DNA of 64,000 nucleotides from an uncultured Bacteroidota bacterium (lineage in GTDB: Bacteria; Bacteroidota; Bacteroidia; Flavobacteriales; Flavobacteriaceae). The translations under genes were made by a program, and so were the position numbers. Position 1 is the stretch's first letter; every line of letters starts with the position of its first letter. A model generated the notes under the pieces. That model was not told the origin of the DNA. It was given only the letters and a program-made list of their open reading frames with translations, and did no database searches. The DNA lies in assembly GCA_902587325.1 (NCBI GenBank), contig CACIKV010000004.1, positions 1 through 64,000 of the forward strand, given 5' to 3'. Below are positions 21,779-49,277 of the stretch, one piece after another.

Positions 21779-23182
21779 ATGAAAAAAATATTTTGTATTC
21801 TTCTTATTCTTTTTTTTTCCTGTGATAAAAACAATCAACTTCCTAATGTAGTTTTGATTCTTACTGATGACTTGGGTTACAATGATGTTGGGTTTAATGG
21901 CTCAACTGAAATTTTCACACCTAATATTGATAAAATTGCTAGTAATGGTGTATTGTTTAAGGAAGGTTATGTTTCTTATCCAGTTTGCGGTCCAAGCAGG
22001 GCAGGTCTGATTACTGGCAGATATCAAGATACATTTGGTTTTGGTAAAAATCCATTATTTACCCCCAAAGACCCAAATATGGGTTTACCATTAACTGAAC
22101 AAACAATGGCAGATATGCTTAAATTATCAGATTATAGAACTTTTGCAGTTGGTAAGTGGCATTTAGGGGCACATGAAAGTTTAAGGCCATTAAAAAGAGG
22201 TTTTGATGAGTTTTTTGGTTTTTTGACTGGAGGTCATAGATATTTCCCTGAAGATTGGACTTTAGCTGATGAGACAGAAGTTAAAAGTCAAGGCCAAGCT
22301 TACAGAACTAAACTTTTAAGAAATGATAAAAGAATAGAAGAAAAAGAATATTTAACAGATGCACTTTCGAGAGAAAGTGTTGATTTTATCGATAGAAATT
22401 CAGAAAAACCATTTTTTATTTACTTAGCTTACAATGCACCACATGGTCCACTTCAAGCCACAAAAGAATATTTAGACAGGTACGACCACATCGATGATGA
22501 AAATAGAAAAACTTATGCAGCGATGGTAAGTGCCGTTGACGATGGAGTAGGGGATATAATTTCTAAGTTAAAAGAAAAAGGAATTTATGATAATACAATT
22601 ATATATTTTTTATCGGATAATGGAGGTAGGCTAAAAGGTGATTCTGATAATGGTGAATTGAGAGGAAAAAAGGGTAATTTATTTGAGGGAGGAATAAGAG
22701 TTCCTTTCGCTATGCAGTGGCCAAAAGAAATCAAAGGTGGACAAGTTTTTGACAGTCCAATAATTTCGCTTGATATTTTTGCAACGCTAAAAGAATTAAC
22801 ATCCCCTGAAATTAAATCTAAAAATAAAATACATGGTGTGAATCTAATACCATATCTAACGGGTGAAAATAAAAATGATCCTCACGAGTTTTTGTTTTGG
22901 AGAAATAATTTCATGCAAAATGATCCTAAATTAAGAATTGAAGGATCAGCTGCAAGAAATGGCGACTTCAAGTTTATTAAAAATAAAGAAACCGACGCGT
23001 TGTATAATCTGAGAGAAGAAATTTCAGAGCAAACAAATCTTAAATTTGATAAAAAAAATATTTATGATTCTCTGAGTATTGAATTTAAGAAATGGACTAG
23101 TACTTTAATGGAGCCAATCTTCTTAGGTTTATTAGCTAATGATGAATACAACAAATTAAACCCGGATAGATTTACATATTAA
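21779..23182 (+). CDS. Sulfatase, formylglycine type, lipoprotein
   Basis: VVLILTDDLGYNDVGFNGS, PVCGPSRAGLITG, SDNGG, FEGGIRVPFAMQWP; lipobox FFSCDK. Confidence 0.92.
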   Translation: MKKIFCILLILFFSCDKNNQLPNVVLILTDDLGYNDVGFNGSTEIFTPNIDKIASNGVLFKEGYVSYPVCGPSRAGLITGRYQDTFGFGKNPLFTPKDPNMGLPLTEQTMADMLKLSDYRTFAVGKWHLGAHESLRPLKRGFDEFFGFLTGGHRYFPEDWTLADETEVKSQGQAYRTKLLRNDKRIEEKEYLTDALSRESVDFIDRNSEKPFFIYLAYNAPHGPLQATKEYLDRYDHIDDENRKTYAAMVSAVDDGVGDIISKLKEKGIYDNTIIYFLSDNGGRLKGDSDNGELRGKKGNLFEGGIRVPFAMQWPKEIKGGQVFDSPIISLDIFATLKELTSPEIKSKNKIHGVNLIPYLTGENKNDPHEFLFWRNNFMQNDPKLRIEGSAARNGDFKFIKNKETDALYNLREEISEQTNLKFDKKNIYDSLSIEFKKWTSTLMEPIFLGLLANDEYNKLNPDRFTY

Positions 23183-31400: not shown

Positions 31401-31624
31401 ACTTAAGGCTAAAAACTTTAAATGTGAGTTTCAATGTACCTAAAAGTCTGACAAATAGATTAGGTATCGATAATGCTCAAATATATGTAGGTGGATCAAA
31501 CCTTATTACATTTGATAATCTGGGGTTATTCTCAGGTGAACACGACCCAGAAATTCTTGGGGCAAACGATAGAGATTATCCAAACGTAAAAACTGTGACA
31601 ACAGGGATCAAAATTGGATTTTAA
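28463..31624 (+). CDS. SusC-like TonB-dependent outer membrane receptor
   Basis: Carboxypeptidase-D-like domain (GTVSDAEGNPLPGVSIVEMNTTNGVVSDFDGNF), EEVVVVGYGSQTKKTLTGAV, plug motif SISVLKDGAASIYGARAGNGVILVTTK. Confidence 0.97.
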   Translation: MYTMKKTRINVLSLLLSFAFLFVSINVFSQQMVSGTVSDAEGNPLPGVSIVEMNTTNGVVSDFDGNFQLSVDSNAVLVFSYLGFITQEVSDLSSSMSVTLEEDVSKLEEVVVVGYGSQTKKTLTGAVGTVSSESLTLRPATNTSELMMGQVAGLSTRQAGALPGASFATLRIRNFEAPLVIVDGIVATFGQVDPNDIESISVLKDGAASIYGARAGNGVILVTTKRGTDRGEGAKFAYHGTTTWSSLTVTPNTLGVHDYGQLLEENGLGFENEAPGYLSWDATRKKVYNNLTGEDFAGFDWYESIYRDWTPQTQHNLSARGRSKGIGYFVSIGFTDTESAFRDADYTHERYNIRSNLDMQFTDKLSAQLDISYFQTTLDRANFGLTEMYNRLSTGKPTHMPIYPDPSYPSHSGAATPYSPIYMLKKEFAGTRVDRDNNLRGAISLTYDVPFIDGLEATASLNMEAQNEWNKNIVKQFMMYTYDPSYGEGDAAYIPFGTYQRDNISVNADRDMELLPRFSLSYEKEFEDSELKALFVAESTTFKRDYLMGSRTDPLSFEAPYLNYSSEAEKDNAEIFSESARSSYVTRVNYSLKDKYLFEAIVRADATARYSVEGRWGVFPAFSFGWRISEEDFMKDSSTWNNLKLRLSHGIMGNDAVSNFDFLTGYNISNGFYLFGGQPYPIIASAGLANALVTWETMSISNIGIDGTLWDGALGFELDIFYRLREDMLALPDADIPFHFGAELPRTNLNSKDNRGFDLMIKHKGKVGNKFSYEINPMISYSRGKFVKLEENILPTTGVDEATLQANLDYNNRYVRTGRWDDLQWGYTTNGFFTSQAQIDAHPVDQDTAGNSTLIVGDLIYTDHNGDGIIDWRDQVVIGQGGMPKWNFSAWTSARWGNWSIDALWQGASGYSIAFSGSGSWQGLNSHQGIPKQFVFDNRSLVDANGDISVLRAFPPTNNTGGATPNNNFSNDFSRLPTTYLRLKTLNVSFNVPKSLTNRLGIDNAQIYVGGSNLITFDNLGLFSGEHDPEILGANDRDYPNVKTVTTGIKIGF

Positions 31625-31648
31625 TTAAAAAATAAATAAATTTATATT

Positions 31649-33385
31649 ATGAAAAACATTGTTAAATTTTTAATATTCGCTCTTCCTTTATTTATCTTAA
31701 TTGGTTGTGCAGATTTAGATTTGCAACCAACGGATATGATTGCTGAAGATGCTGTTAAAAAAGATCCAAAATTGGTTGAAGCTTTTTTAACTAAGATATA
31801 TGCAAATGCAAATTTTGAACCTAATGAAGGTCGAGGTTATCCTAATCAGGATAGGCTTACTGATGCAGTTCTTGGAGGAGAATATACTTTAATGGCTCCG
31901 TGGCAACAAGGTATTCAGGCTTCCACTCATGTACCTACTGCCTCTGGTGCACATTCCAGGATTGCGAAATTTCAATACGGAAACATAAGGTCAACTAATG
32001 AAATCATTGAAATTTTAAATGAGGCTTCATTCGATCCTCAGACAGTGAAAGAACAAATAGCTGAAGCAAAATTTCTTAGGGCTTGGATGTATTTTGAAAT
32101 GGTTAAAAGGTATGGTGGTGTTCCATTAGAGCTTGAGCCAAAACAAGTCGATGATCCTGTGGAGGAATTAATGATTCCTAGATCAAGTTTAAAAGATTGT
32201 TATGATCAAATTATTGCTGATTTGGATGCTGGTATCGCAGATTTACCACCTACAGCTATTGGTGGTAAAGCTACAAGTATGGCAGCTAGAGCTTTAAAAA
32301 GTAGAGCAGCTTTATATGCAGCTAGAATTGCAAAATATCATCCTCAATCTGCAAATGGATTAACCTCAATTCCTGCAAGTAGTGCACAGGCTTACTACCA
32401 AATGGCTCATGGCGCTGCAAGTGCTGTAATTGAAAGTGGAAGACATCCTTTATATAAAGGTGGCGCTAACTTGGTTGATAACTTCTCTGAGATATTTTAT
32501 AAAGATGTTGCTGAACATATTTTTGTTGAGGAATATAGTCTGTCACTGGGAAAAACACACACTTGGAGTGGTTATGGAATGCCTGACGGATTTAAAGCGG
32601 GTTGGGGTTCCAACATGCATATGTACCTAGCTTCAGATGCTCGTTTTGAGCATGTTGACGGTAGTCCTGGAAACAAACATCACGGTAAATTTAATAACCG
32701 TGTTTGGTTTGATATTGAAGAAGTTATTTACACAAAAGATCCAAGATATTTAGCAACACTTTTCACACCGGAAGAAATATTCCAAGGTAGAGAAGTTTGG
32801 TTTCACAATTTAAGTGTAGGTAATGCAGCTAATGGTGTTAAAGGTAGAGCAGGTAATGTTGTTCCTCAAAGAGCACCCGTTAGAAATAGAAATAGAGGAG
32901 GAAGGCTAGTTCAAAAAAGAATAGATCCAGCTATTGAATTTCCACCATTTGGCACGGACGAAACACCATACGTAGTTCTTAGAACTGGTGAAATGTATCT
33001 AAATGCTGCTGAAGCTGCTTTTGAAATGAATAAACCTGTGAGAGCGAAACAACTTATCAATACGCTAAGAGCAAGAGCAGGAATGCCAGCTAAAACTCAA
33101 CTCACTCTTGATCTAATCAAGAATGAAAGATTTGTAGAATTATTTGCTGAAAATCACAGATATTGGGATTTGAGAACTTGGAGAGATGCTGAAGCTGAAC
33201 TACACTTCAAACTTAAGCAAGGAAGTAAGTGGACAAGGAGAGCATCAGACGGTAAGTACAAAGCAAACAAATGGAGATGGAATTTTTCTCAAAATACTCC
33301 ATTCTTGCCAAAAATGTACTGGTTACCATTTGGAACTGGCAGGTTGGCCGATAATCCAAATCTTGTTGAGAATCCAGGATATTAA
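31649..33385 (+). CDS. SusD-like glycan-binding lipoprotein (RagB/SusD)
   Basis: Follows susC; LIGCADLDLQPTD, AEAKFLRAWMYFEMVKRYGGVPL, ERFVELFAENHRYWDLRTWRDAE. Confidence 0.97.
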   Translation: MKNIVKFLIFALPLFILIGCADLDLQPTDMIAEDAVKKDPKLVEAFLTKIYANANFEPNEGRGYPNQDRLTDAVLGGEYTLMAPWQQGIQASTHVPTASGAHSRIAKFQYGNIRSTNEIIEILNEASFDPQTVKEQIAEAKFLRAWMYFEMVKRYGGVPLELEPKQVDDPVEELMIPRSSLKDCYDQIIADLDAGIADLPPTAIGGKATSMAARALKSRAALYAARIAKYHPQSANGLTSIPASSAQAYYQMAHGAASAVIESGRHPLYKGGANLVDNFSEIFYKDVAEHIFVEEYSLSLGKTHTWSGYGMPDGFKAGWGSNMHMYLASDARFEHVDGSPGNKHHGKFNNRVWFDIEEVIYTKDPRYLATLFTPEEIFQGREVWFHNLSVGNAANGVKGRAGNVVPQRAPVRNRNRGGRLVQKRIDPAIEFPPFGTDETPYVVLRTGEMYLNAAEAAFEMNKPVRAKQLINTLRARAGMPAKTQLTLDLIKNERFVELFAENHRYWDLRTWRDAEAELHFKLKQGSKWTRRASDGKYKANKWRWNFSQNTPFLPKMYWLPFGTGRLADNPNLVENPGY

Positions 33386-34828: not shown

Positions 34829-35437
34829 CTATATTTCTAATAATAATTTTGCTCTTCTTTCTATTTCTTTCCAGTTAGATTCATTTATCAAAGTTTCATT
34901 TGCAACCCAACTGCTTCCAATTCCAATGATTTTTTCATGGTTTAAATAAGGATATATATTTATATCATTTATTCCACCCATAGCTATAAAATTTAAACTT
35001 ATTTTTTCAAAAGCTTTCGTGATTGAGTTAAGATAATTTATACCACCTAATTTTTCAGCAGGAAAATATTTTAAATAATTGCATCCACATTTTATAGATT
35101 TTCTAATATCATCTTCGTTCGATACCCCAGGGATAAAATCTACCTTTAACTTGTTTGATAAATTTATTATACTTTCATCAGTGTGTGGTGAAAATGCATA
35201 TTTGATTCCCAATGAACTTACAAAATTTAAATCTTCAGAATTAAGTACAGTGCCAACTCCAATATTAAAATTGTAATCAGAATTAGTTATTTTTTCGATC
35301 GCTTTTTTAGATTCTTTAGTCCTAAGTCTAATATCTAAATTGATAATTCCACTATTGGTTAAACATTTCGCAAGATCCAATATTTTATTAGAATTGTGGA
35401 TTGTTAATACTGCAATTATTTTGTTTTGTATTAACAT
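34829..35437 (-). CDS. 2-keto-3-deoxy-6-phosphogluconate/galactonate aldolase family
   Basis: 202 aa; Schiff-base Lys region CNYLKYFPAEKLGG, GVGTVLNSEDL, FIPGVSNEDD, GGIND. Confidence 0.9.
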   Translation of the reverse strand: MLIQNKIIAVLTIHNSNKILDLAKCLTNSGIINLDIRLRTKESKKAIEKITNSDYNFNIGVGTVLNSEDLNFVSSLGIKYAFSPHTDESIINLSNKLKVDFIPGVSNEDDIRKSIKCGCNYLKYFPAEKLGGINYLNSITKAFEKISLNFIAMGGINDINIYPYLNHEKIIGIGSSWVANETLINESNWKEIERRAKLLLEI

Positions 35438-35439
35438 AG

Positions 35440-36420
35440 TTAAAATGATTTATCGATTTTAAAATTTTCAATTTCTTCATCATTTAAATAATTTAAATCA
35501 CCTGAGATTAGGTGTGAGCTAGCAAATGTTGATGTTGCAAATGAAACTATTTTACTCATATCCCATTTATTAATTATTCCATGTAAACAAGCTCCTAAAA
35601 ATGAATCCCCAGCACCAACCCTGTCAACATGCTTTAATTTATATATTTCGCCTTTGTATATTTTACTTTTATCAAACACTAAACCACTAAGACTATTACC
35701 ATTTCTAACGGTCATTCCTATAAATTTTATATCAAATTCATTATACAGATAACTTACAGAATTTTCTGTCTCTGAATAAAATGAATTATTATTTTCATTT
35801 TCTTCGAAACTAAAAATTTGTTTAATTGAGCCTGAGCTGGTAAATAAATAATCAACTTTTGGAAGTATTTTTAAATTGAATTTTCTACACTCTTTAATTG
35901 ACCATAGATTTTTCCTGTAATTAACATCATATACTATTTTTATTCCATCTTGTTTGGCCTTTTCAATTAATCTTAAAATATTATTAAAACATATTTTTGA
36001 AAGTGCTGGGCTAATTCCAGATAAAATCAGAAAAGATTTATCAAAAAGTATTTTATCGATTAAATGATCTTTTAAACCATATTTTGCAAAGCTACTATTT
36101 TTTCTATCGTAAAATATTTTTGTAAGATTATTATTTTTTCCAGGTTCGGTAAAATAAATTCCAAGTCTATTGTCATCTAGATTCACCATGCATTTTACTT
36201 TATTAGAATCTAAAAATTGTTTAGCCATCATACCTAATTCATTTTTAGGAAATGCAGATAAGAATTCACAATCATGTCCTCTTTTAGCTAAAAAAATTAA
36301 TGAATTTGCTTCGCAACCAGCAAAAGTACTTGAGTAATTAGTTATATTTCTGTTTGGTGAATTATCTGTACTAGGTGTTAACCTTAGCATCAACTCACCA
36401 TAGCCAAGAATTTTATTCAT
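35440..36420 (-). CDS. PfkB-family 2-keto-3-deoxygluconate/galactonate kinase
   Basis: MNKILGYGELMLRLTPS, PfkB signature HVDRVGAGDSFLGACLHG. Confidence 0.9.
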   Translation of the reverse strand: MNKILGYGELMLRLTPSTDNSPNRNITNYSSTFAGCEANSLIFLAKRGHDCEFLSAFPKNELGMMAKQFLDSNKVKCMVNLDDNRLGIYFTEPGKNNNLTKIFYDRKNSSFAKYGLKDHLIDKILFDKSFLILSGISPALSKICFNNILRLIEKAKQDGIKIVYDVNYRKNLWSIKECRKFNLKILPKVDYLFTSSGSIKQIFSFEENENNNSFYSETENSVSYLYNEFDIKFIGMTVRNGNSLSGLVFDKSKIYKGEIYKLKHVDRVGAGDSFLGACLHGIINKWDMSKIVSFATSTFASSHLISGDLNYLNDEEIENFKIDKSF

Positions 36421-37422
36421 CTACACAGAATTCCCTAAACCTAAAACAACTGCAGATCCAATCAAAACAATAAGACCATAAATTAATGTATTAAATGGTT
36501 TTTTCGCATTTTTCCATTCTCCAGCTCTGTATGCCCAAAAATTACTGATTATAAGAGATAGTCCTAATAAAATTGGCCACCCAATAACAGGTCCAATTTC
36601 ACCAAGTAATGCTGCACCTTGACCATATACTCCAAGAGCAGCAAACCAACATAAACCAGCTATAATTGACCATCTGTATGCTTTTGATGAATTTAATGAT
36701 GAAAATGAAGACCAAGAATTATTTTTAAAAAGTAAATAAACACAGTAAAGCAGATTCATTAAAAAAGCACCCCACAATACGACAACCCAAGCTGCTAAAC
36801 TTGAATTTCTTGTTATCACTCCAAACTCTTCTGCAGTTGCTGCTATTGGAGCAGCATTCGCAAAACCAACATTTAATAATGAGGATAATAATCCACATGT
36901 AACTGCAATTAAAATACCCTTGGTAATATTATTTCCTTCAGATTTGGAACTATTTAATTTGTCACGATCAATTCCTGCTTTTGCAGTCAGGAATACACCA
37001 ATTAAAGAAATTATTATACCACCAATTACGTAAGGAAATGCTGGCTGGGAAAATGCATCATCAATTTGAAAAAATGGAATTAAACTTCCAGCCGACCCTG
37101 CAAGGCCCATCACAATTCCCATTGTTAAAGAAAGTCCAATATAAGGTACACTTACTCCAAACATTATTCCGCCAACTCCCCACAAAAAACCTAAAAGCAT
37201 TGCATAAAAAATTGAATCACCTGGAGATGAGCTGATAATATTAAATAAATCAGGCATTATAATTAATGCCCATGTCATTGGAAAGATAATCATTGCAATC
37301 GTTACATGCACTAACCACCACGCTTCCCAAGAAAGTGGGTTCATATATTTCATGCCTAAGCCAAAAGTTCCTTGAAAAAAGCTTGCAAATATTAATAGTA
37401 AAAAGGGTAAAAATAATTCCAT
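36421..37422 (-). CDS. L-rhamnose/H+ symporter (RhaT)-family transporter
   Basis: 333 aa, ~10 TM; FQGTFGLGMKYMNPLSWEAWWLVHVTIAMIIFP resembles RhaT. Confidence 0.88.
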   Translation of the reverse strand: MELFLPFLLLIFASFFQGTFGLGMKYMNPLSWEAWWLVHVTIAMIIFPMTWALIIMPDLFNIISSSPGDSIFYAMLLGFLWGVGGIMFGVSVPYIGLSLTMGIVMGLAGSAGSLIPFFQIDDAFSQPAFPYVIGGIIISLIGVFLTAKAGIDRDKLNSSKSEGNNITKGILIAVTCGLLSSLLNVGFANAAPIAATAEEFGVITRNSSLAAWVVVLWGAFLMNLLYCVYLLFKNNSWSSFSSLNSSKAYRWSIIAGLCWFAALGVYGQGAALLGEIGPVIGWPILLGLSLIISNFWAYRAGEWKNAKKPFNTLIYGLIVLIGSAVVLGLGNSV

Positions 37423-37440: not shown

Positions 37441-38880
37441 TTATAATGCTATACTAATTCGTTTTTTTGTCAGATAATCGTGGAGTGCTAAATGTGAGCA
37501 ATCGTGTCCAATTCCACTTTCTTTAATACCCCCGTGCGGTAAGTAGATTGCATATTTGATTCCATTTACTTGAACCTCGCCAAATTCTAAGTTTTCTGAG
37601 AAAAAATTTATTCTTTCATCATTTGTTGTAAAAATATACGAAGCTAATCCATAGTCTGTTTTATTGGCAAGGGCTAAGACCTGCTCATCGCTGCTAAATT
37701 TCATAATTGAAGCAACTGGTCCAAAAATTTCTTCATTGAATATCCTCATTTTATCATTAATATTCGTAATAACAGTTGGTTCAAGCCAATTTCCAATTGG
37801 ATGGTTTCCAGGAATTTTTCCACCGTATTCAAGTTTTCCACCATTTTTTAATGTATCATCAATTAAGTCTAAAATTCTATCCCTCGATTTAGATGTAATT
37901 AGTGGACCCATATCAGGATTTTGATTTTCACCAAAACCAAGCTTTAAATTTTTTACTCTGTTCAAATATCCTTCAAGAAATCTGTCATATATTTTTTCAT
38001 GTATAAAAAATCTATTTGCGGCTACACATATTTGACCAGAGTTTCCAAACTTGATTCCAATCGCTAAATCAATTGCAGATTTTAAATCAGCATCATCAAA
38101 AACGATAAATGGTGCGTTTCCTCCCAACTCCATACTCAACCTTTTGATACTTGTAGAAGAATCTGAAAAAACTTTTTTTGCTGTATTTGTAGATCCAATC
38201 ATTGTGATGAGTCTTGGTATCTTACTTTTAGATAAAGTTGCAGCTACTATTTCTGGTTCACCACAAATTATATTTACAACCCCTGCTGGAAAATCAATTT
38301 CTTTTAAGAGTTTACCAATTAAATAAGCTGAAACTGGAGAAATTTCTGAAGGTTTAATGATTATGCTGCAACCTGAAGCTAAAGCAGGACCAATTTTAAA
38401 AGCCAAGTTTAAAAGAGGGAAATTCCAGGCCAAATAAGCAACAACAACACCTACTGGATAATTTTTTAGAGTATGTGTGTGCGTATTTTCTTTATCATCA
38501 ATACTTGAGTCAGAAAAATATTTTTCCATTGCATCAGGATAAAAATCTAAGCTACTTGTAAGTGAATCGATGTCTTCTTTAGATCCCTCATAAGTTTTAC
38601 CCATTTCATAAATAATGGCTTTCCTTAACAATTTTTCATTATTAATAACAGCATTTTTAAATTTTGTCATCCAAACTTTTCTTTCATCAAGACTTAATTT
38701 AGACCATGTTTTAAAACCTAATTTTGCTGCTTCTAAGGCATTTTCTGCATCATTTTTATTTGCCCATGACAATTGTGCAATGGAATTATTATTTGCTGGG
38801 CATTGAATTATTTTTTCTGATCCATCAATTGAGTCAATTAACTCTCCACCAACATACATTTTTAGTTTACCAAAATCCAT
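37441..38880 (-). CDS. NAD(P)-dependent aldehyde dehydrogenase (candidate 3,6-anhydrogalactose dehydrogenase)
   Basis: MELGGNAPFIVFDDAD, FGNSGQICVAANRF (catalytic Cys), NEEIFGPVASIMKF. Confidence 0.9.
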   Translation of the reverse strand: MDFGKLKMYVGGELIDSIDGSEKIIQCPANNNSIAQLSWANKNDAENALEAAKLGFKTWSKLSLDERKVWMTKFKNAVINNEKLLRKAIIYEMGKTYEGSKEDIDSLTSSLDFYPDAMEKYFSDSSIDDKENTHTHTLKNYPVGVVVAYLAWNFPLLNLAFKIGPALASGCSIIIKPSEISPVSAYLIGKLLKEIDFPAGVVNIICGEPEIVAATLSKSKIPRLITMIGSTNTAKKVFSDSSTSIKRLSMELGGNAPFIVFDDADLKSAIDLAIGIKFGNSGQICVAANRFFIHEKIYDRFLEGYLNRVKNLKLGFGENQNPDMGPLITSKSRDRILDLIDDTLKNGGKLEYGGKIPGNHPIGNWLEPTVITNINDKMRIFNEEIFGPVASIMKFSSDEQVLALANKTDYGLASYIFTTNDERINFFSENLEFGEVQVNGIKYAIYLPHGGIKESGIGHDCSHLALHDYLTKKRISIAL

Positions 38881-38882
38881 TT

Positions 38883-40508
38883 TTAGTTAATTTCAATTGC
38901 ACCAAGATCTGGCATATTTTTTATTGGATTTCCAAGGATGTCCATATCAACTTTTAACCCAATTCTTAATCCAATACTATCATTAACGATATTCGTAATA
39001 TCGATTCCTTTATCTTTTATTAAATCAATATTTAAAGGAAAATAGTCGGATATTAATTCACCACCAGCATTTTTGAAAAAAGGATCACCAATGACAGATT
39101 TAATAGGTTGAATTAGAACCTCTTTTGGCCAATGGTCTTTGAGAAATAAATTGTTTTCAAAAAATACATTTTCAATAGATCCATCTCCTCCTGTATCAGG
39201 CTTGTATTGATCACCTAAAACCATGGCTGTTTCACCTTTATAATAAAATATGTTATTAGCTACTAAAACTCCTTTTGAATTTTTGTCAACTGCAATTTTT
39301 GAAACAATATCTTCATTAACATATATAGTATTATTATAAACATAGCTATTATATGGTCCATGCCTTTCATTTCCATTACCAACAAAACCACTTAACCAAA
39401 ACGATTTTCCTTCTTGAAAATTATTTCCTTTTCCCTTTATTCTATAACCATCATTAATACTAACATTATATCTGTATGAACAATTATAATTATTACCTAA
39501 AATCTCAACAAAACCACCAGCATTATTTTTACTAAGATTATATTGAACAACAATATCTTTACAATTAAAATCAATATGGCAACCTGCAGAATCAGCTGGG
39601 CCATTTGCATTTTGAAACTTATTTTTTTCAATTAAACCTAGTGTACTTCCCCATGTCCACAAACCACTTCCTCTTCCCCATTTTCTTGAATCATCTGGTG
39701 AGCCGGAAAAATTTATATCATTTGCATATGCATGTAAATTATAGGTACTATTGAAAACCATTCCAGGACCACCTGTTTTTATTAGCTTATTGTTGAAAAC
39801 ATTAACATTTTTAAATTTATTATCCAGTCTTCCTTTTACTCTAATTCCGGAATGAGATATATTTTCAATGATTGAGTTTTTTATTGTTAAATTTTCTAAG
39901 TTTCCAGAGTCACTTAAATTTAAAATTCTAATTCCCCAGCCATAACTTCCATTTCCATTTGGAGTTCTAACTTCATTACTATTTCTCTTAAAACCTTCAT
40001 CATAAAAGAAAATATCATTAATAATTACATTGTCTATTGAAAAATTTTTGTGAGTATTTTTATCAGAAACTATATATAAAATACCAGCTCTTAAATCACG
40101 ATTGATAAGTTTATGAGGTTTAGAACTTTCATTTCCTCCATTTGCAGTGATTTGGATATTTGAAATATTTGTAAAGGATGAATTTTCAACTAAAATACCA
40201 GCTAAATTTCCTTTCGAATCTATAATTGGTTTATTTTCATATTCTTCTTCATTATAATTTGTTATCATAATGTTTCTTTTATTTAAAAGCTTTATTGAGC
40301 CTTTAAACAATGATCCATTTGAAAGGTATATATGAGAGTTGTTTTTTAAATTAATATCATTAATTTTTTCTATTGAACGAAAAGGGAGTTCTTTGGACCC
40401 AGGATTTTGATCACTTCCATTTACTGAATCAAAGTAAAAACTATCATTTTCTTCACAGGATAACAGAAAAAAAATGAAAAAAGAAAAAAACAAAAATCTA
40501 ATTTCCAT
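38883..40508 (-). CDS. Right-handed parallel beta-helix lipoprotein, putative carbohydrate-active enzyme
   Basis: Lipobox FFLLSCEEND; beta-helix-like repeats; shares RGSGLWTW, CHIDFNCKDIVVQYNLSKNNAGGFVEILG with the next gene. Confidence 0.75.
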   Translation of the reverse strand: MEIRFLFFSFFIFFLLSCEENDSFYFDSVNGSDQNPGSKELPFRSIEKINDINLKNNSHIYLSNGSLFKGSIKLLNKRNIMITNYNEEEYENKPIIDSKGNLAGILVENSSFTNISNIQITANGGNESSKPHKLINRDLRAGILYIVSDKNTHKNFSIDNVIINDIFFYDEGFKRNSNEVRTPNGNGSYGWGIRILNLSDSGNLENLTIKNSIIENISHSGIRVKGRLDNKFKNVNVFNNKLIKTGGPGMVFNSTYNLHAYANDINFSGSPDDSRKWGRGSGLWTWGSTLGLIEKNKFQNANGPADSAGCHIDFNCKDIVVQYNLSKNNAGGFVEILGNNYNCSYRYNVSINDGYRIKGKGNNFQEGKSFWLSGFVGNGNERHGPYNSYVYNNTIYVNEDIVSKIAVDKNSKGVLVANNIFYYKGETAMVLGDQYKPDTGGDGSIENVFFENNLFLKDHWPKEVLIQPIKSVIGDPFFKNAGGELISDYFPLNIDLIKDKGIDITNIVNDSIGLRIGLKVDMDILGNPIKNMPDLGAIEIN

Positions 40509-42282
40509 TGTAAGCTCCTATGTTTGGTTTTTCTGAATTTGAAACGTTATTACCAAAATAATCTTTGCCTCCATTGTTCTCTATAAAATTTTTTGGATTT
40601 GAACTACCGCTTATTAAAATTCCAGTTTTCAGCGCAGGGCTATCCGACTTAAGTTTATAATCATTAGCACTTGTCCCGCCAGGATTAATCAGTAGGGGAT
40701 CAGTATTAAAAATTTCGCTTGTGTCATGTTTAAATTCATAACTTGGATTGATTGCAACAGTCCCGTAGTAAAGATTGTTTTTAAAACTATTGTATTCACT
40801 TTCGTTTCTTATGTCAAATGTAATTTTAGCTTGATTACTTATATATATTAAATTATTATAAACATAAGTCTCTTCTGACATTTCCCTAAAAAGAATTCCT
40901 AAATGATCCATTGGGTTATTATTTACAGAGTTAATGCTGGGGACAAAGATCGTATTGTTATAGTAAAAGTTGTTTTTAGAAGCTCTTCGTCTGTTATCTG
41001 AGCCTGCATAGTCAGATACCCAAAATATTAATCCATCATGTTGGCCAGTTCTAGTTCCATCTCCAATACTAATGTTGTATCTATATCCGCACATCTCATT
41101 TTCACCAAGAATTTCTCCAAATCCTCCAAAATTATTCTTACTTAAATTGTATTGAATAACAACTCTTTTACATCCCCAATCAATATGAGCTCCGAATGAG
41201 TCCTGAGGACCATATGCATTTTCAAAAATGTTATTTTGAATTGTAGTATCATTACAAGTGTAGGTCCACATACCACTTCCTCTATTCCACATTCTTCCAT
41301 CCTTACTGGATCCAGTTCCATCAAAATGAGAGTTTTCAACAATAACATCCTTACATCTAGCAAGAACAATTCCTGATCCTCCAGTATCTTTAAATTTCGA
41401 GTTTGTAATACGGATATTTCTATGATAATAATCTTCATTAGCTGGTGACATTCTGTTCACAATGTGAACACCATAATGACCAGTGAGTGAAATATCTACG
41501 TTATCAATTTCAATATTGTCATAATAATTTATTTCTGAATTATTATATGATTCAAATCTAATACCATATCCTTGATGTTTTTTGCTATTATCAGACGGCG
41601 TAGGGTATATATCATATATTAATAAATCTTTTAATGAAATATTAGAAATATTTCTACCGCCTCCGTATCTGAGAACTAATAATCCATATCTCTCCTCCTC
41701 ACCAGATCTTTCAGAAGCATTCATTAGCTTAGTTTCACCATTTGATAATTTATGAGATGCTTGGTTTGTTAATTGTAGACCAGAAACGCTGATATTTTCA
41801 ACATTTTCAAGAAAAATACAAGCTTGGTATCCATTTCCATCAATTTTAGGCTTTGAGCCGGATCCATAAGCTCCAATTTCAATTTTATTAGATGCCTCAC
41901 CAGAACCAAGAATTTTGAAATAGCCTCTCCAACTATCACCACTTTTAAACATTATCTTATCACCAGGCTTGTATGTTATGCTATTAATTTTCCCTAAATT
42001 TTTGAAGGCATTATCTTCACTCTTACCATCATTATCATCGTTTCCAGATGTAAAACTTATATAATATGTAGTGTTTCCTGACGAAGTTGTAGATGAAAAA
42101 TCATCCGGATCAGTAGTTTCACCTGAATTATTACTACCACCACTATTATTTCCACCACTATTATTGTTATTACCGTTATTATTTCCATTATTTTCCGAGC
42201 CACTACCTTCAGATCCACCATCTGATGAGCAAGATATAGCTAAGGCAGAAAATATTAGGATAATTATATTTTTATATTTCAT
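40498..42282 (-). CDS. Right-handed parallel beta-helix lipoprotein, putative carbohydrate-active enzyme (paralog of 38883)
   Basis: Lipobox ALAISCSSDGG, Asn/Gly/Ser linker, YYISFTSGNDDNDGKSEDNAFKNL, RGSGMWTYTCND, AHIDWGCKRVVIQYNLSKNNFGGFGEILG. Confidence 0.75.
   Translation of the reverse strand: MKYKNIIILIFSALAISCSSDGGSEGSGSENNGNNNGNNNNSGGNNSGGSNNSGETTDPDDFSSTTSSGNTTYYISFTSGNDDNDGKSEDNAFKNLGKINSITYKPGDKIMFKSGDSWRGYFKILGSGEASNKIEIGAYGSGSKPKIDGNGYQACIFLENVENISVSGLQLTNQASHKLSNGETKLMNASERSGEEERYGLLVLRYGGGRNISNISLKDLLIYDIYPTPSDNSKKHQGYGIRFESYNNSEINYYDNIEIDNVDISLTGHYGVHIVNRMSPANEDYYHRNIRITNSKFKDTGGSGIVLARCKDVIVENSHFDGTGSSKDGRMWNRGSGMWTYTCNDTTIQNNIFENAYGPQDSFGAHIDWGCKRVVIQYNLSKNNFGGFGEILGENEMCGYRYNISIGDGTRTGQHDGLIFWVSDYAGSDNRRRASKNNFYYNNTIFVPSINSVNNNPMDHLGILFREMSEETYVYNNLIYISNQAKITFDIRNESEYNSFKNNLYYGTVAINPSYEFKHDTSEIFNTDPLLINPGGTSANDYKLKSDSPALKTGILISGSSNPKNFIENNGGKDYFGNNVSNSEKPNIGAYNGN
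42124..42224 (-). repeat. Low-complexity Asn/Gly/Ser-coding tract
   Basis: Encodes GGSEGSGSENNGNNNGNNNNSGGNNSGGSNNSG after the lipidated Cys. Confidence 0.75.
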
Positions 42283-42415: not shown

Positions 42416-44083
42416 ATGAAATTTTTTTTCAATCTTTTAAAAGTTCTTTTTTCTTTTTCATTAGTGATTAATTTAATGTCTTGTGTTAAAAACACTCAAC
42501 CAAACATTGTTTTGATAATGGTTGATGATTTGAATGATTATCCTGAAGTTTTTAATGGCCATCCTCAAGCAAAAACACCCAATATTAAAAAATTAGCTAA
42601 TTCAGGTACCTCTTTTTTAAATGCATATACTAATGATCCAATGTGTGGACCCTCAAGAGCTAGTATGATTACTGGTGTCTATCCACATAATTCATCAAAC
42701 TTTTGGCAAGACTCTTGGCTTAAAAACAAGGTTTTGTCCAATACAAAAACTATTATGGAAAAATTCAAAGAGAATGGTTACAATGTTGTTGGAAGTGGTA
42801 AAATTTTACATCACCACTCAAGTAATTTGTGGAGCGAATTTGAGCATAAAGCAGACTATGGACCGGTTGCTTACAAAGGAAATAAAGAAAAAGGAAAAAA
42901 AGGGATGGCTCATCCTGATGTGCCAAAACCTTTTTCTTCAATTGGTCAAATCGATGGATCTTTCGGAGCTTTAAAAAACATATCTAATTTAGAAATGGAT
43001 GGAGAAAAAATTTCGTGGGCTTATGGTGGATCTGCAGGATACAAAGAGTTTCAATACAATAATGAAGAAGATAGAGATTTAACACCAGATGAAATTAATG
43101 CCAAATGGGCTGAAGATAAGCTTAATGAGTTTGCAAGTTCTGATAATGAGCAACCATTTTTTTTAGCTGTTGGCTTTTTGAGACCACATACACCATTGAT
43201 AGCTCCTCAAAAATATTTTGACATGTATCCAATAGAGGATATACAGTTAGCTAATATTTTAGAAAATGACAAGGATGATACTTTTAGAAATTATGATTTA
43301 AACTATAAAAATTTATTAATTGAAACGGAAAAAAAAGGTTCATCTCCTACGCACCAACAACTTACAAGAAGATGGATTGAAATGTTTGAAAATTTGGAAA
43401 AATCCTATGATGATCCGGAAGAAGGTTTAAAAAGATTTACTCAGGCCTATTTGGCTTGCGTTTCTGCTGTTGATGATAATATTGGTCAAGTAATGAACGC
43501 AATTGATAATTCCAGATTAAAAGATAATACTATTATCATTTTAGTTAGCGATCATGGATGGACTATGGGAGAAAAAGATCATGTTTATAAAAATTCGTTG
43601 TGGGAAGAAAGTACTCGAATTCCTATGATAATTAGGGCTCCAGGTGTAACTAAATTTAAATCAAAAGTGACTCATCCTGTATCATTGATTGATATTTATC
43701 CAACATTGTTGGGTTTAGCTGGATTGGATACTGAAACTAAGAAAAATGATAATGGAAAATCACTAGATGGTTATAGTCTAGTTCCTTTTTTAAAAGATCC
43801 AGAATCAGAGGATTGGGAAGGTCCTGAGGCAGCATTGACAGTAGTTTACAGCTCATATGCCAATAGGAATATTCCTGCAAACCATCATTATTCAGTTAGG
43901 ACAAAAGATTGGAGATATATAATATATAACTCAGGTAAGGAGGAATTGTATCATAATGCTAAGGATCCTAAGGAGTGGAATAATTTAGTTTTTAATAATT
44001 CACATCCAAAAAGAGATGAAATGGTTAAAATTTTAAAACAAATGACATATCCAATGATTCCCAACGGACTATTGAAAAAATAA
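42416..44083 (+). CDS. Sulfatase, formylglycine type (iduronate-2-sulfatase-like), lipoprotein
   Basis: NIVLIMVDDLNDYPEVFNGHP, PMCGPSRASMITG, SDHGWTMGEKDHVYKNSLWEESTRIPMIIRAPG; lipobox LMSCVK. Confidence 0.92.
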   Translation: MKFFFNLLKVLFSFSLVINLMSCVKNTQPNIVLIMVDDLNDYPEVFNGHPQAKTPNIKKLANSGTSFLNAYTNDPMCGPSRASMITGVYPHNSSNFWQDSWLKNKVLSNTKTIMEKFKENGYNVVGSGKILHHHSSNLWSEFEHKADYGPVAYKGNKEKGKKGMAHPDVPKPFSSIGQIDGSFGALKNISNLEMDGEKISWAYGGSAGYKEFQYNNEEDRDLTPDEINAKWAEDKLNEFASSDNEQPFFLAVGFLRPHTPLIAPQKYFDMYPIEDIQLANILENDKDDTFRNYDLNYKNLLIETEKKGSSPTHQQLTRRWIEMFENLEKSYDDPEEGLKRFTQAYLACVSAVDDNIGQVMNAIDNSRLKDNTIIILVSDHGWTMGEKDHVYKNSLWEESTRIPMIIRAPGVTKFKSKVTHPVSLIDIYPTLLGLAGLDTETKKNDNGKSLDGYSLVPFLKDPESEDWEGPEAALTVVYSSYANRNIPANHHYSVRTKDWRYIIYNSGKEELYHNAKDPKEWNNLVFNNSHPKRDEMVKILKQMTYPMIPNGLLKK

Positions 44084-44150: not shown

Positions 44151-45014
44151 TTGAAACTCAAATACTCAATTCATAATAAAAATGAACAAAAGAGTTTTTA
44201 CGTTAAACGTAAAAACACCCCTTACCGAGGAGATGATTGGCATTATCACGATGAATTTGAGTTATATTTTCCCATGACTGGTTCTGGTATTAGAATTGTT
44301 GGGGATAGCATGGAATATTACGGCTCGAACGAATTAGTTTTTTGTGGGACTAACCTTCCGCACTTATTTAAAACTAATTCTGAAGATAATGATCATGACA
44401 GAGTTGTTGTTAAATTTAGTAAATCACTTATCTGGCAAATTATTGATAATGTTCCAGAGTTTGTAAAAATAAAGCAACTTTTAATTAAATCTTCCAGAGG
44501 AATTTTATATCCCGTTTCAAAAAGTTATTCATTAGTTAATGATTTTATTAGATTGTCTGAAGCTAATGGGGCAGGTAGAGTTATTCAGCTATTAAATATT
44601 TTGAATAAAATTTCTAAAATGGAAGATTTTAGGCTATTAACATCAGACAGTTATAAAAATATTTCTGAAAGTCGTAATGACGAAAGGCTTCAAAAGGTTA
44701 TAAATTTTATTACTGAAAATTTTTATAGAGAAATTTCTCTTAAGGAATTAGCTGAAATTTCATTTATGACTACAAACTCTTTTTGCAGGTATTTCAAGGA
44801 AAGAACAAATAAGACTGCGTTTGAGTTTATTAGAGAATTTAGAATTAGTAAAGCATGTCAAATGATTATTAATAGTAACAAAACAATCTCTCAGATTTGT
44901 GATGATACTGGATTTAATTCGTTTTCAAGTTTTAATCGTGTTTTTAAATCTGTTAAGGGAATTACTGCAAGTGAATTTAAATATATGTATCAAGAGATTA
45001 ATTTTTCTAATTAA
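44151..45014 (+). CDS. AraC-family transcriptional regulator (TTG start)
   Basis: N-terminal cupin-like DDWHYHDEFELYFPMTGSG; C-terminal AraC HTH (ISLKELAEISFMTTNSFCRYFKERTNKTAFEFIREFRISKACQMI). Confidence 0.9.
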   Translation: MKLKYSIHNKNEQKSFYVKRKNTPYRGDDWHYHDEFELYFPMTGSGIRIVGDSMEYYGSNELVFCGTNLPHLFKTNSEDNDHDRVVVKFSKSLIWQIIDNVPEFVKIKQLLIKSSRGILYPVSKSYSLVNDFIRLSEANGAGRVIQLLNILNKISKMEDFRLLTSDSYKNISESRNDERLQKVINFITENFYREISLKELAEISFMTTNSFCRYFKERTNKTAFEFIREFRISKACQMIINSNKTISQICDDTGFNSFSSFNRVFKSVKGITASEFKYMYQEINFSN

Positions 45015-46186
45015 TTTTGTTTAATTAATTCTTCAAGATTTTTTATTCCTTTAGTTTTTTTAGTATAAATGTTAAGTGCTTCTTCATTAACTTCTAATCC
45101 AAGTCCTGGTGATTTAGGTACCAGTATTGTACCATTTTTCATTTTTATTTTAGGACTTGTTAAATTCTCTCTTAAAGCATTTTCTGTTTGATCATATTCA
45201 AGATAAAAATCTGATTCATTCATTCTGCCAGGAATTGATTCTAAATTTGAAATGAAATGGAGCGCTACATGTAAACCGATTGAACTACCCCAGGTGTGAG
45301 GAATAATATCAATTCCATTGGAGCTGGCAAGTGCAGAAATTCTCTTAGCTTCTGTCAACCCTCCACATGCACAAATGTCTGGTTGAATTATATCTACGGA
45401 TTTATTTTTAATTATTTGGTTAAATCCGAATCTAAGATATTCGCATTCTCCACCAGCAATAGGAATTCTAGATTTCATTCTTAGATCAGAATATTGTTCA
45501 TAAAATTCAGGTGAAATTGGTTCCTCAAACCATGAAATATCGTAAGGCTCAATTTTTCTACAAAGTTCTAACGCCTCACTGTAGCTATATGCATGATTGG
45601 AATCAATCATAAGTTTGATATTAGGACCAACTATATTTCTTAATTCCTTAATATTATTTAAATCTTTGTTAATTCCTAGACCAACTTTCATTTTAATGGC
45701 TTTAAAACCTTCTTTTAAATATTTTTCAGCTTCAATTTTATAATCTTTTGTTGGGTTATCTTTTTCTGTAAAATACATTCCGGTTGCATATGGAACAATA
45801 TTTTCTCTGTGAACACCACCAAGAAGTTCGCCAACACTGAGTCCTAATAGTTTCCCTTTAATATCCCACAAAGCAATATCAATAGCACTTATAGACGCAA
45901 CTAAAACACCTCTTCTAGCAAAATCAAGTGATTTTCTATACATTTTATGCCATATAACTTCATTGTTAATCGGATTTTCACCAATTAAAAATTTCTTGAA
46001 AAAATCAATTCCAGATTCTACTATTTTTGCAGGCCCATAACCCTCTCCCCAACCGTAAGTTCCATCATCACAGCTTACTTTTACAATACAAATACTTCTT
46101 TCATCGTAACCCCATTGTGAAAAGAAAAAATTCTTTTCAAGTGAATCTTTTAATACAAATGTTTCTATGCTATTTATTTTTTTCAT
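45011..46186 (-). CDS. Enolase-superfamily (MR-MLE) cycloisomerase/dehydratase, galactarolactone/anhydrogalactonate cycloisomerase-like
   Basis: 391 aa; AIKMKVG (KxK), LMIDSNHAYSYSEA, WFEEP, IAGGECEYLRFG, DIIQPDICACGGLTEAKRI, PHTWGSSIG. Confidence 0.85.
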   Translation of the reverse strand: MKKINSIETFVLKDSLEKNFFFSQWGYDERSICIVKVSCDDGTYGWGEGYGPAKIVESGIDFFKKFLIGENPINNEVIWHKMYRKSLDFARRGVLVASISAIDIALWDIKGKLLGLSVGELLGGVHRENIVPYATGMYFTEKDNPTKDYKIEAEKYLKEGFKAIKMKVGLGINKDLNNIKELRNIVGPNIKLMIDSNHAYSYSEALELCRKIEPYDISWFEEPISPEFYEQYSDLRMKSRIPIAGGECEYLRFGFNQIIKNKSVDIIQPDICACGGLTEAKRISALASSNGIDIIPHTWGSSIGLHVALHFISNLESIPGRMNESDFYLEYDQTENALRENLTSPKIKMKNGTILVPKSPGLGLEVNEEALNIYTKKTKGIKNLEELIKQN

Positions 46187-46304: not shown

Positions 46305-49277
46305 CTAGTTAAAATAATCAATCATATTTAATAAAATGATTTCAGAAACCGGATCAAAACCAATATTTTCTATTAGTTTAAGCGTTGATAATACCATTTT
46401 TCCTTTTTCATGTTTTACAATTGAAAGATCTGAACCAGACCAAACCTCACCTGAACCAATATAGTTTCTTTTTAAAATATTACCATCAGGAATTCTATCA
46501 AAAGCTATTGTTTGTACTATATTGTCCCCTTTAAAATTTCTTAAACTAATTGAGGGTGCGATATTTTCATATATCCCCGACAAATTAACATTAACTGGAA
46601 GATTCTTAAAAAATTTATGTTTAGAGTTTATATGCAATATACCGTCCCATAAACCTTGTGAAATATTTTTAACTGGTTTTTGCGGAAGATAATCGATTCC
46701 GTCAGCAATAAATGTAAGGTTAGGACCAATTCTTTTTCTTGTTTTTCCAGGTATTTTAAGAAATATAGCATTACCTCCTTCACTTACAAAATTATTTATA
46801 TCATCCATTTTATTACTAAAATTATCTGATCTATCTAATTTATTTTTTTCTATTACATTACCATCTTTAGAATTTGTAACATCTGAATAGATGTCATTAA
46901 TAATTACAGGAACATCTAGTGAAGTTGATTTACTAAAAATTTCATAATTAATATTATATTTTTTTAAAAAATCAATAATTCTATTGTCGTTTTTTATAAT
47001 AGCAACGTCCTTTGTAATTCTCCTTCTATCAATAAAAAAAACATTAAAAATAATTGAGCTAGAATAATCAATCAATTTATCTTTTAATATGGTTACTGTT
47101 ACTTCATATTCTCCTGTTTCTAGGTCATTACCTAAATTAATTTCATCGAGTGAATTAATCCCATTTTCGATAGAAATTTTTAATTTTTTATTGTAAATAG
47201 ATTTTTTAGTATTATTTAAAAGTTTAAAAGCACTAATTATTATCTCGTTTTTCTGTGCTGCATTTTCATTAATAATTTTAGTCGAAATTTTTACATCTTC
47301 ACCCTGGAAATAATTACGTTTATTTGTTCTTAATACTGCAATTTTAGGCAGGTTACCTTCTTTAGTTAGTTCATACGCAAGCCCTTTGGGATTTCTCCAA
47401 AGATCCAATAAACCAGCACCAATTATCCAGTCTCCTGCTGTCAATGCATGAACACAATATCCAATAATATTATCATTTGATCTAATTGCTTCAATCATTC
47501 TCTTATTGGCAATGCCATGTATTTCTTGTTGTTTTTTATAAAAGTTACTAGCATTTTTAAATAATTTAATAAGTCCAGTCTCTTTCAATTTCTCTTTAAT
47601 TTCTCTATTGAATCTAAGGTGATATAAGTATGGGTAAGTTATAGGATTTCCATGGTTTATAAAATCAATTTCATTATCTTCTAAATCTGGTAAACTACCA
47701 TATCCAATTTCAGAAACGTATGAAGGAATATTTGGAACAACATTCCTGCCTGGGGTTGGAGCATTTAGACCTCTTTTTTTATTTTCCTCATCACTGAAGC
47801 CAATTGTTAGAAAGCCATCAAATTTATTATTTGTTATGTTTGGACCAGGATAATTGTGAATATCATTAAATTTGAATGCTTTAGTACTATAAGGCAGATA
47901 TAAGTTTGCGCCTTCTGCCCATCCGCCTGATTCATCCAATATTAGTCTTGTGGGATCTAACTCTCTAGCCTTTAACGACATTGGTTTTAGCATATTGGCA
48001 AGAACAGGTCTTCTTATTTCATTGAACAATTCCCATTGAACTATTGAGGGATGATTTCGATCTCTCAGAATGGATTCCGTAATTTCATTTTCAACTCTTT
48101 TTGGTAGATAGGCAGTTTCAATTGGCATATCCATACACTCTATAGCCATGCTACCAACTGTTAAAATACCTAAAGAGTCTGCAATGTGAAGCCATTCTTT
48201 GGGAGGCGGTTTTCTCCATGGTCTAATCATATTAAATCCAGCATTTTTAGCCAATAAAATTTCTTTTATCATCATTTCTCTGGAATCAGGATATGATAGT
48301 TTAACTGGATACAAACCTTCAAAAAAAGCTGCTTTGAGATATAATGGCTTATCGTTTAAAAAAAATTTATTGTCTTTGACAGTAAACTCTCTTAATCCAA
48401 ATTTTTCATTTACATTATCTAAAATTTTATATGTTGTGTCATTTGAATTAATGTTAACCTCAAATAGGTTTATATTTAGATTATAAAGATTAGGGTTTTC
48501 TGGAGACCAAATTTTGTGCTTATTTATTTTCCCATTTATGTATTCTTTAACTTTTAAATTAGAATTCTTCAAATCAAAAAATTTTTCAATTTTATTTTGA
48601 TTATTTATCTCAGCTATAATTTTGTATAAACCATCACCAAGACCATTTACGATTTCATTTTCAATTGAAATTTCACCTGTTTTATGATTACTTTTAATAA
48701 AAACATCATTAATATGAGTATGACCTGTAAATGATAAATAAACATCTTGCCATATGCCGCCTGTGTATGACCCACGCCACTGAGGAGTCTCCATTTGTCC
48801 AATTCCATCAATTATTTTATCCTGAATAGTGATTGGTCCTAAAACTTTCACAATTAGTATATTTTCATTTTCAAAATCAACAACGTGTTCAATATTAAAA
48901 TTAAATGGTGAAAAACCGCCCTCATGAAATCCTAAAGAATTATCATTTAGAAATACTTCAGTTAAATAATTTGATGCATTAAAATTTAGATGAATTTTAT
49001 TTCCTTTTTTTGATTCGTTTACTTTAAATTTAGTCCTGTAGTAAACTACACCTTCATAATCTTTTTTAAATCTTTCCCAAACACTTGGTACCGTAATTTT
49101 TTCAATATTACCATTACTAAATCCATCATTGGAACTGAATTTCTTTATTTTTCCTTCATTATTTTTATCATAAATTATTTCCCATTCTCCATTAAGAGAT
49201 ATTGTTTCATCACGATTTAGTTGTGCATTTGTCGAACAAAAAAATATAAAAAATAAAAAAGCATTGATAAGTCTCAT
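46305..49277 (-). CDS. Glycoside hydrolase family 2 protein
   Basis: Signal peptide; jelly-roll N-domain (GVVYYRTKFKV, LTEVFLNDNSLGFHEGGFSPF), acid/base region RDRNHPSIVQWELFNEI, SEIGYGSLP. Confidence 0.88.
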   Translation of the reverse strand: MRLINAFLFFIFFCSTNAQLNRDETISLNGEWEIIYDKNNEGKIKKFSSNDGFSNGNIEKITVPSVWERFKKDYEGVVYYRTKFKVNESKKGNKIHLNFNASNYLTEVFLNDNSLGFHEGGFSPFNFNIEHVVDFENENILIVKVLGPITIQDKIIDGIGQMETPQWRGSYTGGIWQDVYLSFTGHTHINDVFIKSNHKTGEISIENEIVNGLGDGLYKIIAEINNQNKIEKFFDLKNSNLKVKEYINGKINKHKIWSPENPNLYNLNINLFEVNINSNDTTYKILDNVNEKFGLREFTVKDNKFFLNDKPLYLKAAFFEGLYPVKLSYPDSREMMIKEILLAKNAGFNMIRPWRKPPPKEWLHIADSLGILTVGSMAIECMDMPIETAYLPKRVENEITESILRDRNHPSIVQWELFNEIRRPVLANMLKPMSLKARELDPTRLILDESGGWAEGANLYLPYSTKAFKFNDIHNYPGPNITNNKFDGFLTIGFSDEENKKRGLNAPTPGRNVVPNIPSYVSEIGYGSLPDLEDNEIDFINHGNPITYPYLYHLRFNREIKEKLKETGLIKLFKNASNFYKKQQEIHGIANKRMIEAIRSNDNIIGYCVHALTAGDWIIGAGLLDLWRNPKGLAYELTKEGNLPKIAVLRTNKRNYFQGEDVKISTKIINENAAQKNEIIISAFKLLNNTKKSIYNKKLKISIENGINSLDEINLGNDLETGEYEVTVTILKDKLIDYSSSIIFNVFFIDRRRITKDVAIIKNDNRIIDFLKKYNINYEIFSKSTSLDVPVIINDIYSDVTNSKDGNVIEKNKLDRSDNFSNKMDDINNFVSEGGNAIFLKIPGKTRKRIGPNLTFIADGIDYLPQKPVKNISQGLWDGILHINSKHKFFKNLPVNVNLSGIYENIAPSISLRNFKGDNIVQTIAFDRIPDGNILKRNYIGSGEVWSGSDLSIVKHEKGKMVLSTLKLIENIGFDPVSEIILLNMIDYFN

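Follow-up and report, generated by a model that had tools for sequence, protein, structure and literature searches.

What do two paralogous beta-helix lipoproteins do at the head of a sugar-catabolic operon in an uncultured member of the Flavobacteriaceae, and which sugar would they release? The operon lies in a stretch of 64,000 nucleotides (contig CACIKV010000004.1, positions 1 to 64,000), here called the window, and the two genes in question, B1 and B2, are the following.

38883..40508, minus strand: B1, GH136-related beta-helix lipoprotein, 541 aa
40498..42282, minus strand: B2, GH136-related beta-helix lipoprotein, 594 aa, first gene of the operon

We suggest, with a probability of roughly 0.48, that B1 and B2 are exo-acting retaining glycosidases on desulfated carrageenan oligosaccharides, and that at least one of them replaces glycoside hydrolase (GH) family 127 as the 3,6-anhydro-D-galactosidase. 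An earlier note, made from the DNA letters alone, had described a paralogous pair of beta-helix lipoproteins at the operon head, with long common motifs, an 11-bp gene overlap and a 2-nt gap between B1 and the aldehyde dehydrogenase gene. This description is borne out by the open reading frames (ORFs) and their coordinates, by both spacings, by an identity of 34% between B1 and B2 across 395 aa (E = 4e-55) and by the presence of the quoted motifs in both paralogues. Both N-termini have a signal peptide followed by a lipobox (LLSC / AISC, judged by eye). The gene order on the minus strand is B2, B1, aldehyde dehydrogenase, RhaT-like symporter, PfkB kinase and KDPG (2-keto-3-deoxy-6-phosphogluconate) aldolase, a six-gene run with spacings of -11 (the B2/B1 overlap), 2, 18, 0 and 2 nt.

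The sole Pfam match of the pair is the generic Beta_helix model (4.6e-9 for B2, under the gathering score for B1), and the GH127 model PF07944 is unmatched by either protein in the same scan. Among PDB sequences the best phmmer matches are GH136 lacto-N-biosidases, at 2.1e-17 for B2 and 1.8e-9 for B1, and a profile of 13 relatives matches five GH136 lacto-N-biosidases with E-values between 1e-38 and 1e-51; next comes a partial alginate lyase match at 2e-9, and nothing else is strong. The AlphaFold models (predicted local distance difference test, pLDDT, 92.4 and predicted template modelling score, pTM, 0.91 for B1; 88.1 and 0.87 for B2) lead to the same family. GH136 occupies ranks 1-6 in Foldseek against the PDB for both models (query TM 0.48-0.67), with best E-values of 6e-18 (B1) and 5e-21 (B2) against about 1e-6 and 1e-7 for the best non-GH136 match, and the E-value falls from GH136 to the next fold by about five orders of magnitude for B1 and nine for B2.

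The proposal of a candidate new family, with none recognisable, has therefore to be given up, since all solved GH136 lacto-N-biosidases stand at the top of both the sequence and the fold matches, and since a published survey (PMC9723794) gives the GH136 label to sulfatase-containing PULs (polysaccharide utilisation loci) of a related genus; the fold comparison with GH110, GH82 and PL6 (polysaccharide lyase family 6) that the earlier note had suggested, run on the AlphaFold models, put GH136 far ahead. Its broader idea of beta-helix glycan-cleaving enzymes is supported by the GH136 homology and fold, and its statement that no canonical depolymerase occurs holds for GH16 and GH127 within the coverage of the Pfam set used, which has no GH82 model; the window does contain a GH2 (46305-49277) and a GH78-like enzyme (49813-52368). 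Membership in GH82, GH28, PL6 or GH110 was rejected, their fold matches being far weaker than those to GH136 or absent among the matches listed (PL6 and GH110 at E about 1e-6 or weaker; GH82 absent among the matches listed). GH110 comprises beta-helix alpha-1,3-galactosidases, one of which (9BEV) was solved with a lambda-carrageenan oligosaccharide, and thus offers a beta-helix enzyme that binds carrageenan, but its fold match to B2 is weak (E 2e-4, TM 0.28).

Judged from sequence and models, B1 and B2 are distant GH136 relatives that form a separate clade. In common with the lacto-N-biosidases LnbX (5GQC), ErLnb136 (6KQS), TnX (7V6M) and BsaX (7V6I) they have the catalytic beta-helix with domain-wide homology, an Asp pair seven residues apart, a conserved Trp, and QYN and RYN-x-S segments. 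They differ from these enzymes in their sequence (about 20% identity), in the Arg, His and Glu of RGS, HID and EIL motifs where GH136 has V, D and M, and in being lipoproteins without a GH136-I domain in sulfatase-rich marine loci. That B1 and B2 are true lacto-N-biosidases on host-type glycans is scarcely credible, even though GH136 is the closest characterised family. Known GH136 enzymes need the helical GH136-I domain (PMC7335108, PMC8106489), which is in neither chain; in both AlphaFold models the beta-helix begins after a short lipoprotein leader, and the phmmer match of B2 to 6KQS begins at residue 230. The divergent active-site residues and the marine context of sulfatases and anhydrogalactose also speak against this function, as does the LnbX equivalog model NF047897, which scores 39.6 bits with B2 against a cut-off of 2500 and leaves B1 unmatched. 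A supported branch (99, Shimodaira-Hasegawa-like approximate likelihood ratio test, SH-aLRT, quick method) sets the characterised GH136 enzymes apart in the tree, and B1 falls within a 36-row clade of full support. Because the signature differs, the GH136-I domain is missing and the branch is separate, the pair are relatives of GH136 and not lacto-N-biosidases by any test made.

In ErLnb136 the acid/base is D568 and the nucleophile D575 (PMC7335108). From the alignment, the D-x6-D spacing and the numbering of that paper, the predicted catalytic pair (acid/base, nucleophile) is D306/D313 in B1 and D361/D368 in B2, and both positions are Asp throughout a set of non-redundant relatives (74/74), and likewise in three GH136 enzymes and in an intermediate clade of four members. 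The clade-specific residues are, in B2 numbering, R334 (74/74), H366 (74/74) and E390 (73/74), with R279, H311 and E335 as their B1 counterparts. Of the conserved residues which the earlier note had put forward as catalytic, the HID Asp falls on the GH136 nucleophile in the alignment, whereas the Glu of EIL is clade-specific and not catalytic in GH136; the predicted acid/base lies seven residues before the HID Asp, inside the shared motif DS[AF]G. The lipoprotein signals and the occurrence of a paralogous pair within a PUL would also suit non-catalytic surface glycan-binding proteins, a reading which is made very improbable by the invariance of the Asp pair and its surrounding residues in 74/74 relatives, and by family members fused, as enzymes are, to sulfatases, carbohydrate-binding modules (CBMs) or type IX secretion system (T9SS) tails. 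The intermediate clade, placed between GH136 and B1/B2 (L046:387-1841, L107 with the ORF at 308, L185:13138-14664 and L114 with the ORF at 1170), retains the Asp pair and a GH136-like DxD, without the RGS/HID/EIL signature.

The sugar concerned is indicated by the surrounding locus of about 17-52 kb, which has seven S1 sulfatases, SusC/SusD, an SSF symporter, GH2 and GH78-like enzymes, an AraC regulator and an enolase-superfamily gene.

16989-18470, plus strand: S1_a sulfatase
18477-20060, plus strand: S1_b sulfatase
20073..21593, minus strand: S1_c sulfatase, nearest solved structures include named S1_15 sulfatases
21779..23182, plus strand: S1_d sulfatase, nearest solved structures are S1_19 iota/kappa-carrageenan sulfatases
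23172-24659, minus strand: S1_e sulfatase
24652-26526, minus strand: S1_f sulfatase
26520-28208, minus strand: SSF symporter
28463..33385, plus strand: SusC/SusD pair
34829..35437, minus strand: KDPG/KDPGal-type aldolase (KDPGal, the galactonate analogue), TIGR01182 over its cut-off
35440..36420, minus strand: PfkB-family 2-keto-3-deoxy sugar-acid kinase
36421..37422, minus strand: RhaT-like sugar:proton symporter, Pfam RhaT 3.4e-29
37441..38880, minus strand: aldehyde dehydrogenase, DauA-like candidate for the oxidation of 3,6-anhydro-D-galactose by synteny with DauB, Pfam Aldedh 2.5e-135
42416..44083, plus strand: S1_g sulfatase, divergent neighbour of B2, formylglycine (FGly) motif CGPSR, kept in the genus module
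44151..45014, plus strand: AraC-type regulator in a CgrA-like position
45011..46186, minus strand: DauB, 3,6-anhydro-D-galactonate cycloisomerase (enolase superfamily)
46305..49277, minus strand: GH2, probable exo-beta-galactosidase, kept in the genus module
49813..52368: GH78-like enzyme

Sequence comparison assigns the pathway to 3,6-anhydro-D-galactose, the sugar of carrageenan. The window DauB is 56% identical to 5OLC, which has been identified as the DauB of Zobellia (PMC5698469), against 39% to AtGCI, and its predicted catalytic and metal-binding segments match 5OLC unchanged in an alignment judged by eye. The aldehyde dehydrogenase, kinase and aldolase belong to the families of the known 3,6-anhydro-D-galactose route and are syntenic with DauB, and on these two grounds they are its putative remaining enzymes. 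The adjacent "KDG pathway" (KDG, 2-keto-3-deoxygluconate) of the earlier note thus stands as a link to sugar catabolism and is narrowed, through DauB, to 3,6-anhydro-D-galactose. An agar/L-anhydrogalactose pathway is unlikely, the match to L-anhydrogalactonate cycloisomerase being 3e-37 compared with 5e-145 for DauB. The locus resembles the carrageenan PUL of Zobellia galactanivorans (dagA/dagB/dauABCD/cgs/cgr, PMC5698469) in its DauB, AraC regulator, S1_19-type sulfatase and SusC/D and, at the level of protein family, in its aldehyde dehydrogenase, sugar-acid kinase and aldolase, and differs from it in the added GH2 and GH78-like genes and in having the GH136-like pair instead of GH127 (dagA). 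S1_g had no PDB match at a strict cut-off of 1e-40.

GH127 (dagA) is reported to be strictly conserved in carrageenan PULs, and a dagA3/dagB double mutant of Zobellia galactanivorans to be unable to grow on carrageenan (PMC5698469). Its product DagA, an alpha-1,3-(3,6-anhydro)-D-galactosidase, belongs to a protein family unrelated to B1 and B2 and performs the step that we propose for them; it is usually encoded within 25 kb of DauB and was found in 0/23 of the genomes searched in the window's genus. Among 398 Flavobacteriaceae genomes, 35 have a close DauB, and 26 of these 35 have a strong GH127, within about 25 kb of DauB in 22-23 cases. The GH136-like family occurs in 8/9 of the DauB-bearing genomes without GH127 compared with 3/26 of those with it (Fisher p = 6e-5), or, collapsed by genus, in 6/7 compared with 3/23 (p = 9e-4); these p-values are indicative, since several of the nine genomes are incomplete and the genomes are mutually related. 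A class-wide DauB survey gave 7 carriers in 389 genomes, too few for extending these statistics.

The association is also seen in gene order. Most of the genus, and genome G026, have a compact module of GH2, S1_g, B2, B1, DauB, aldehyde dehydrogenase, RhaT, kinase and aldolase; the RhaT-like symporter is 77-96% identical within this module in close relatives, and in G014 B1 ends 6 bp ahead of DauB. No GH besides GH2 and B1/B2 was recognised between the compact-module genes, the GH78-like gene not being among them. B1 alone accompanies sulfatases, AraC, RhaT, aldehyde dehydrogenase and DauB in a Polaribacter metagenome-assembled genome (MAG; L127), and a different clade of the GH136-like family lies beside DauB and GH2 in G458 and G090.

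In the scheme that we infer for activity, substrate, linkage, exo mode, cell location and the division of steps between B1 and B2, both would be cell-envelope lipoprotein glycosidases built on the GH136 catalytic beta-helix, with a two-Asp retaining mechanism and a pocket reshaped through Arg, His and Glu to fit the anhydro- or sulfated galactose of a marine substrate. The S1 sulfatases would strip sulfates from short carrageenan-type oligosaccharides, B1 and/or B2 would split 3,6-anhydro-D-galactose, alpha-1,3-linked to galactose, off the non-reducing end, and GH2 would take off the exposed beta-galactose in alternation with them. The freed anhydro-sugar would pass to DauA, DauB, the kinase and the aldolase, and B1/B2 would thus stand in for GH127. 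As a chemical argument, alpha-anhydrogalactose in the 1C4 ring form would have an equatorial leaving group, like beta-glycosides.

Several observations weigh against this scheme. Known GH136 enzymes cleave beta linkages, and an alpha-anhydrogalactosidase would mean a changed anomeric type. The compact module is without SusC/D, so that uptake of oligosaccharides has to be assumed, and DagB-type (GH129-like) enzymes may act as well, the PF11308 control having matched nothing anywhere and hence being uninformative. The genomes lacking GH127 are mostly incomplete MAGs or single-amplified genomes (SAGs) of small genomes. Family members and DauB lie at separate genome positions in G485, G344 and G336, and in two of the eight family carriers without GH127 (G336, G485) they are not adjacent. 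G073 combines DauB, GH2 and the GH78-like gene but lacks both a strong GH127 and the GH136-like family, and it follows that another enzyme can perform anhydrogalactose release. Beyond the genus, DauB is in the flank of about 10 kb at 1/27 B1-clade loci and at none of the other 26, and G037, which bears B1, has no DauB match at 1e-110; the family is therefore not tied to 3,6-anhydro-D-galactose.

The GH78-like gene travels with GH2, S1_g and DauB elsewhere (locus L194 of G073) even where B1 and B2 are missing, and the window enzyme is a second candidate for the anhydrogalactose-releasing step. In a rather unlikely alternative, B1 and B2 would be exo-neocarrabiosidases, that is, retaining beta-glycosidases that clip the disaccharide AnG-alpha-1,3-Gal (AnG, 3,6-anhydrogalactose) from beta-1,4-linked carrageenan, and another enzyme (GH78-like, GH2 or unlinked) would free the anhydro-sugar. 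It is the more conservative reading of GH136 chemistry, since a GH136 enzyme has a pocket, acts with retention and sets free a disaccharide (PMC8106489), and its cut of Gal-beta-1,3-GlcNAc likewise has a beta-pyranoside with a 3-O-linked sugar at -1. It would also suit the carrageenan PULs without known carrageenases (PMC5698469) and the gene content of G073, which has GH78-like, GH2, S1_g and DauB and no B1/B2. However, the compact genus module has GH2 as its sole other recognised GH, so that the anhydrogalactosidase would there have to be unlinked, and the replacement pattern concerns GH127, itself an anhydrogalactosidase.

Across GTDB genomes, 272 relatives were confirmed in a scan and 80 kept, from single-cell genomes and MAGs of marine Flavobacteriales and from Bacteroidales, Cytophagales, Pontiella sulfatireligans, Pelagicoccus, Opitutales and an Acidobacteria MAG. 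S1 sulfatases are found at 22/27 B1-clade loci outside the genus, a figure without a background rate for comparison, and in two cases (L036:14568-18662 and L114:11583-15125) an S1 sulfatase and a GH136-like domain are fused in one protein. Less probable still is that the family cuts alpha-galactose or other sulfated-galactan residues in general, that anhydrogalactose loci are just one of its several settings, and that B1 and B2 here remove non-anhydro or sulfated side residues. The frequent sulfatases and rare DauB outside the genus are in line with such a role, as are the GH29, GH16, GH43 and GH116 neighbours, the relatives in Pontiella, Pelagicoccus and the Acidobacteria MAG, and, close to family members in G344, a lambda-carrageenase-like (CGLA) protein that is divergent and bears a T9SS tail (L186:11383-14640), but in the window's genus, which lacks GH127, the pair is firmly linked to the Dau genes. 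Lambda-carrageenase (GH150) association was not used as support, PF25290 being found mainly in genomes without the GH136-like family. From the sulfatase-rich loci, the fusions and the mixed DauB linkage across relatives, the family overall looks like one that acts on sulfated galactans, and its tie to anhydrogalactose is closest in the window's genus.

A wider proposal, which we offer tentatively and with some doubt, is that this broad GH136-related clade of Bacteroidota, Kiritimatiellota/Verrucomicrobiota and Acidobacteria consists of carrageenan-active retaining glycosidases in which an alpha-1,3-(3,6-anhydro)-D-galactosidase evolved independently; with GH127 and DagB this would make three unrelated solutions, the new one being in use among pelagic flavobacteria with small genomes. 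GH136 is so far known as a gut and human-milk-sugar family. If true, a large marine sister clade tied to sulfatases and 3,6-anhydro-D-galactose would explain "enigmatic" PULs and supply the missing enzyme for carrageenan PULs without GH127, and small-genome pelagic bacteria would meet anhydrogalactose-bearing polymers in open water, where their source is not obvious. It would also give a testable function to proteins that automatic annotation would call lacto-N-biosidase-like. The "enigmatic" PUL of Winogradskyella forsetii has GH136-labelled proteins and sulfatases and no known substrate (PMC9723794); by its description, not by sequence comparison, it may be the same kind of locus. In a Flammeovirga chromosome GH136 is merely among the enriched families (PMC8653839), the only paper found that names GH136 together with carrageenan. 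The activity proposed for B1 and B2 is unreported as far as could be found, subscription papers and preprints being beyond the reach of the search.

The genome of the window has a third family member (G000:C11:3498-5276, L045, minus strand), which overlaps a GH16 gene by 11 bp, and a similar pairing with GH16 recurs within the genus; this GH16 was dropped as a carrageenase link, its best PDB matches being laminarinases. The assemblies of the genus (g1, e.g. MED-G14 and AG-numbered single-cell genomes) measure about 0.9-1.5 Mb and seem to come from seawater; they have the anhydrogalactose pathway, and open water offers no obvious source of carrageenan. Within the window, a 233-aa ORF at 34084-34785, unmatched in Pfam and NCBIfam, lies beside an aquaporin gene and is 70-91% identical in sister genomes.

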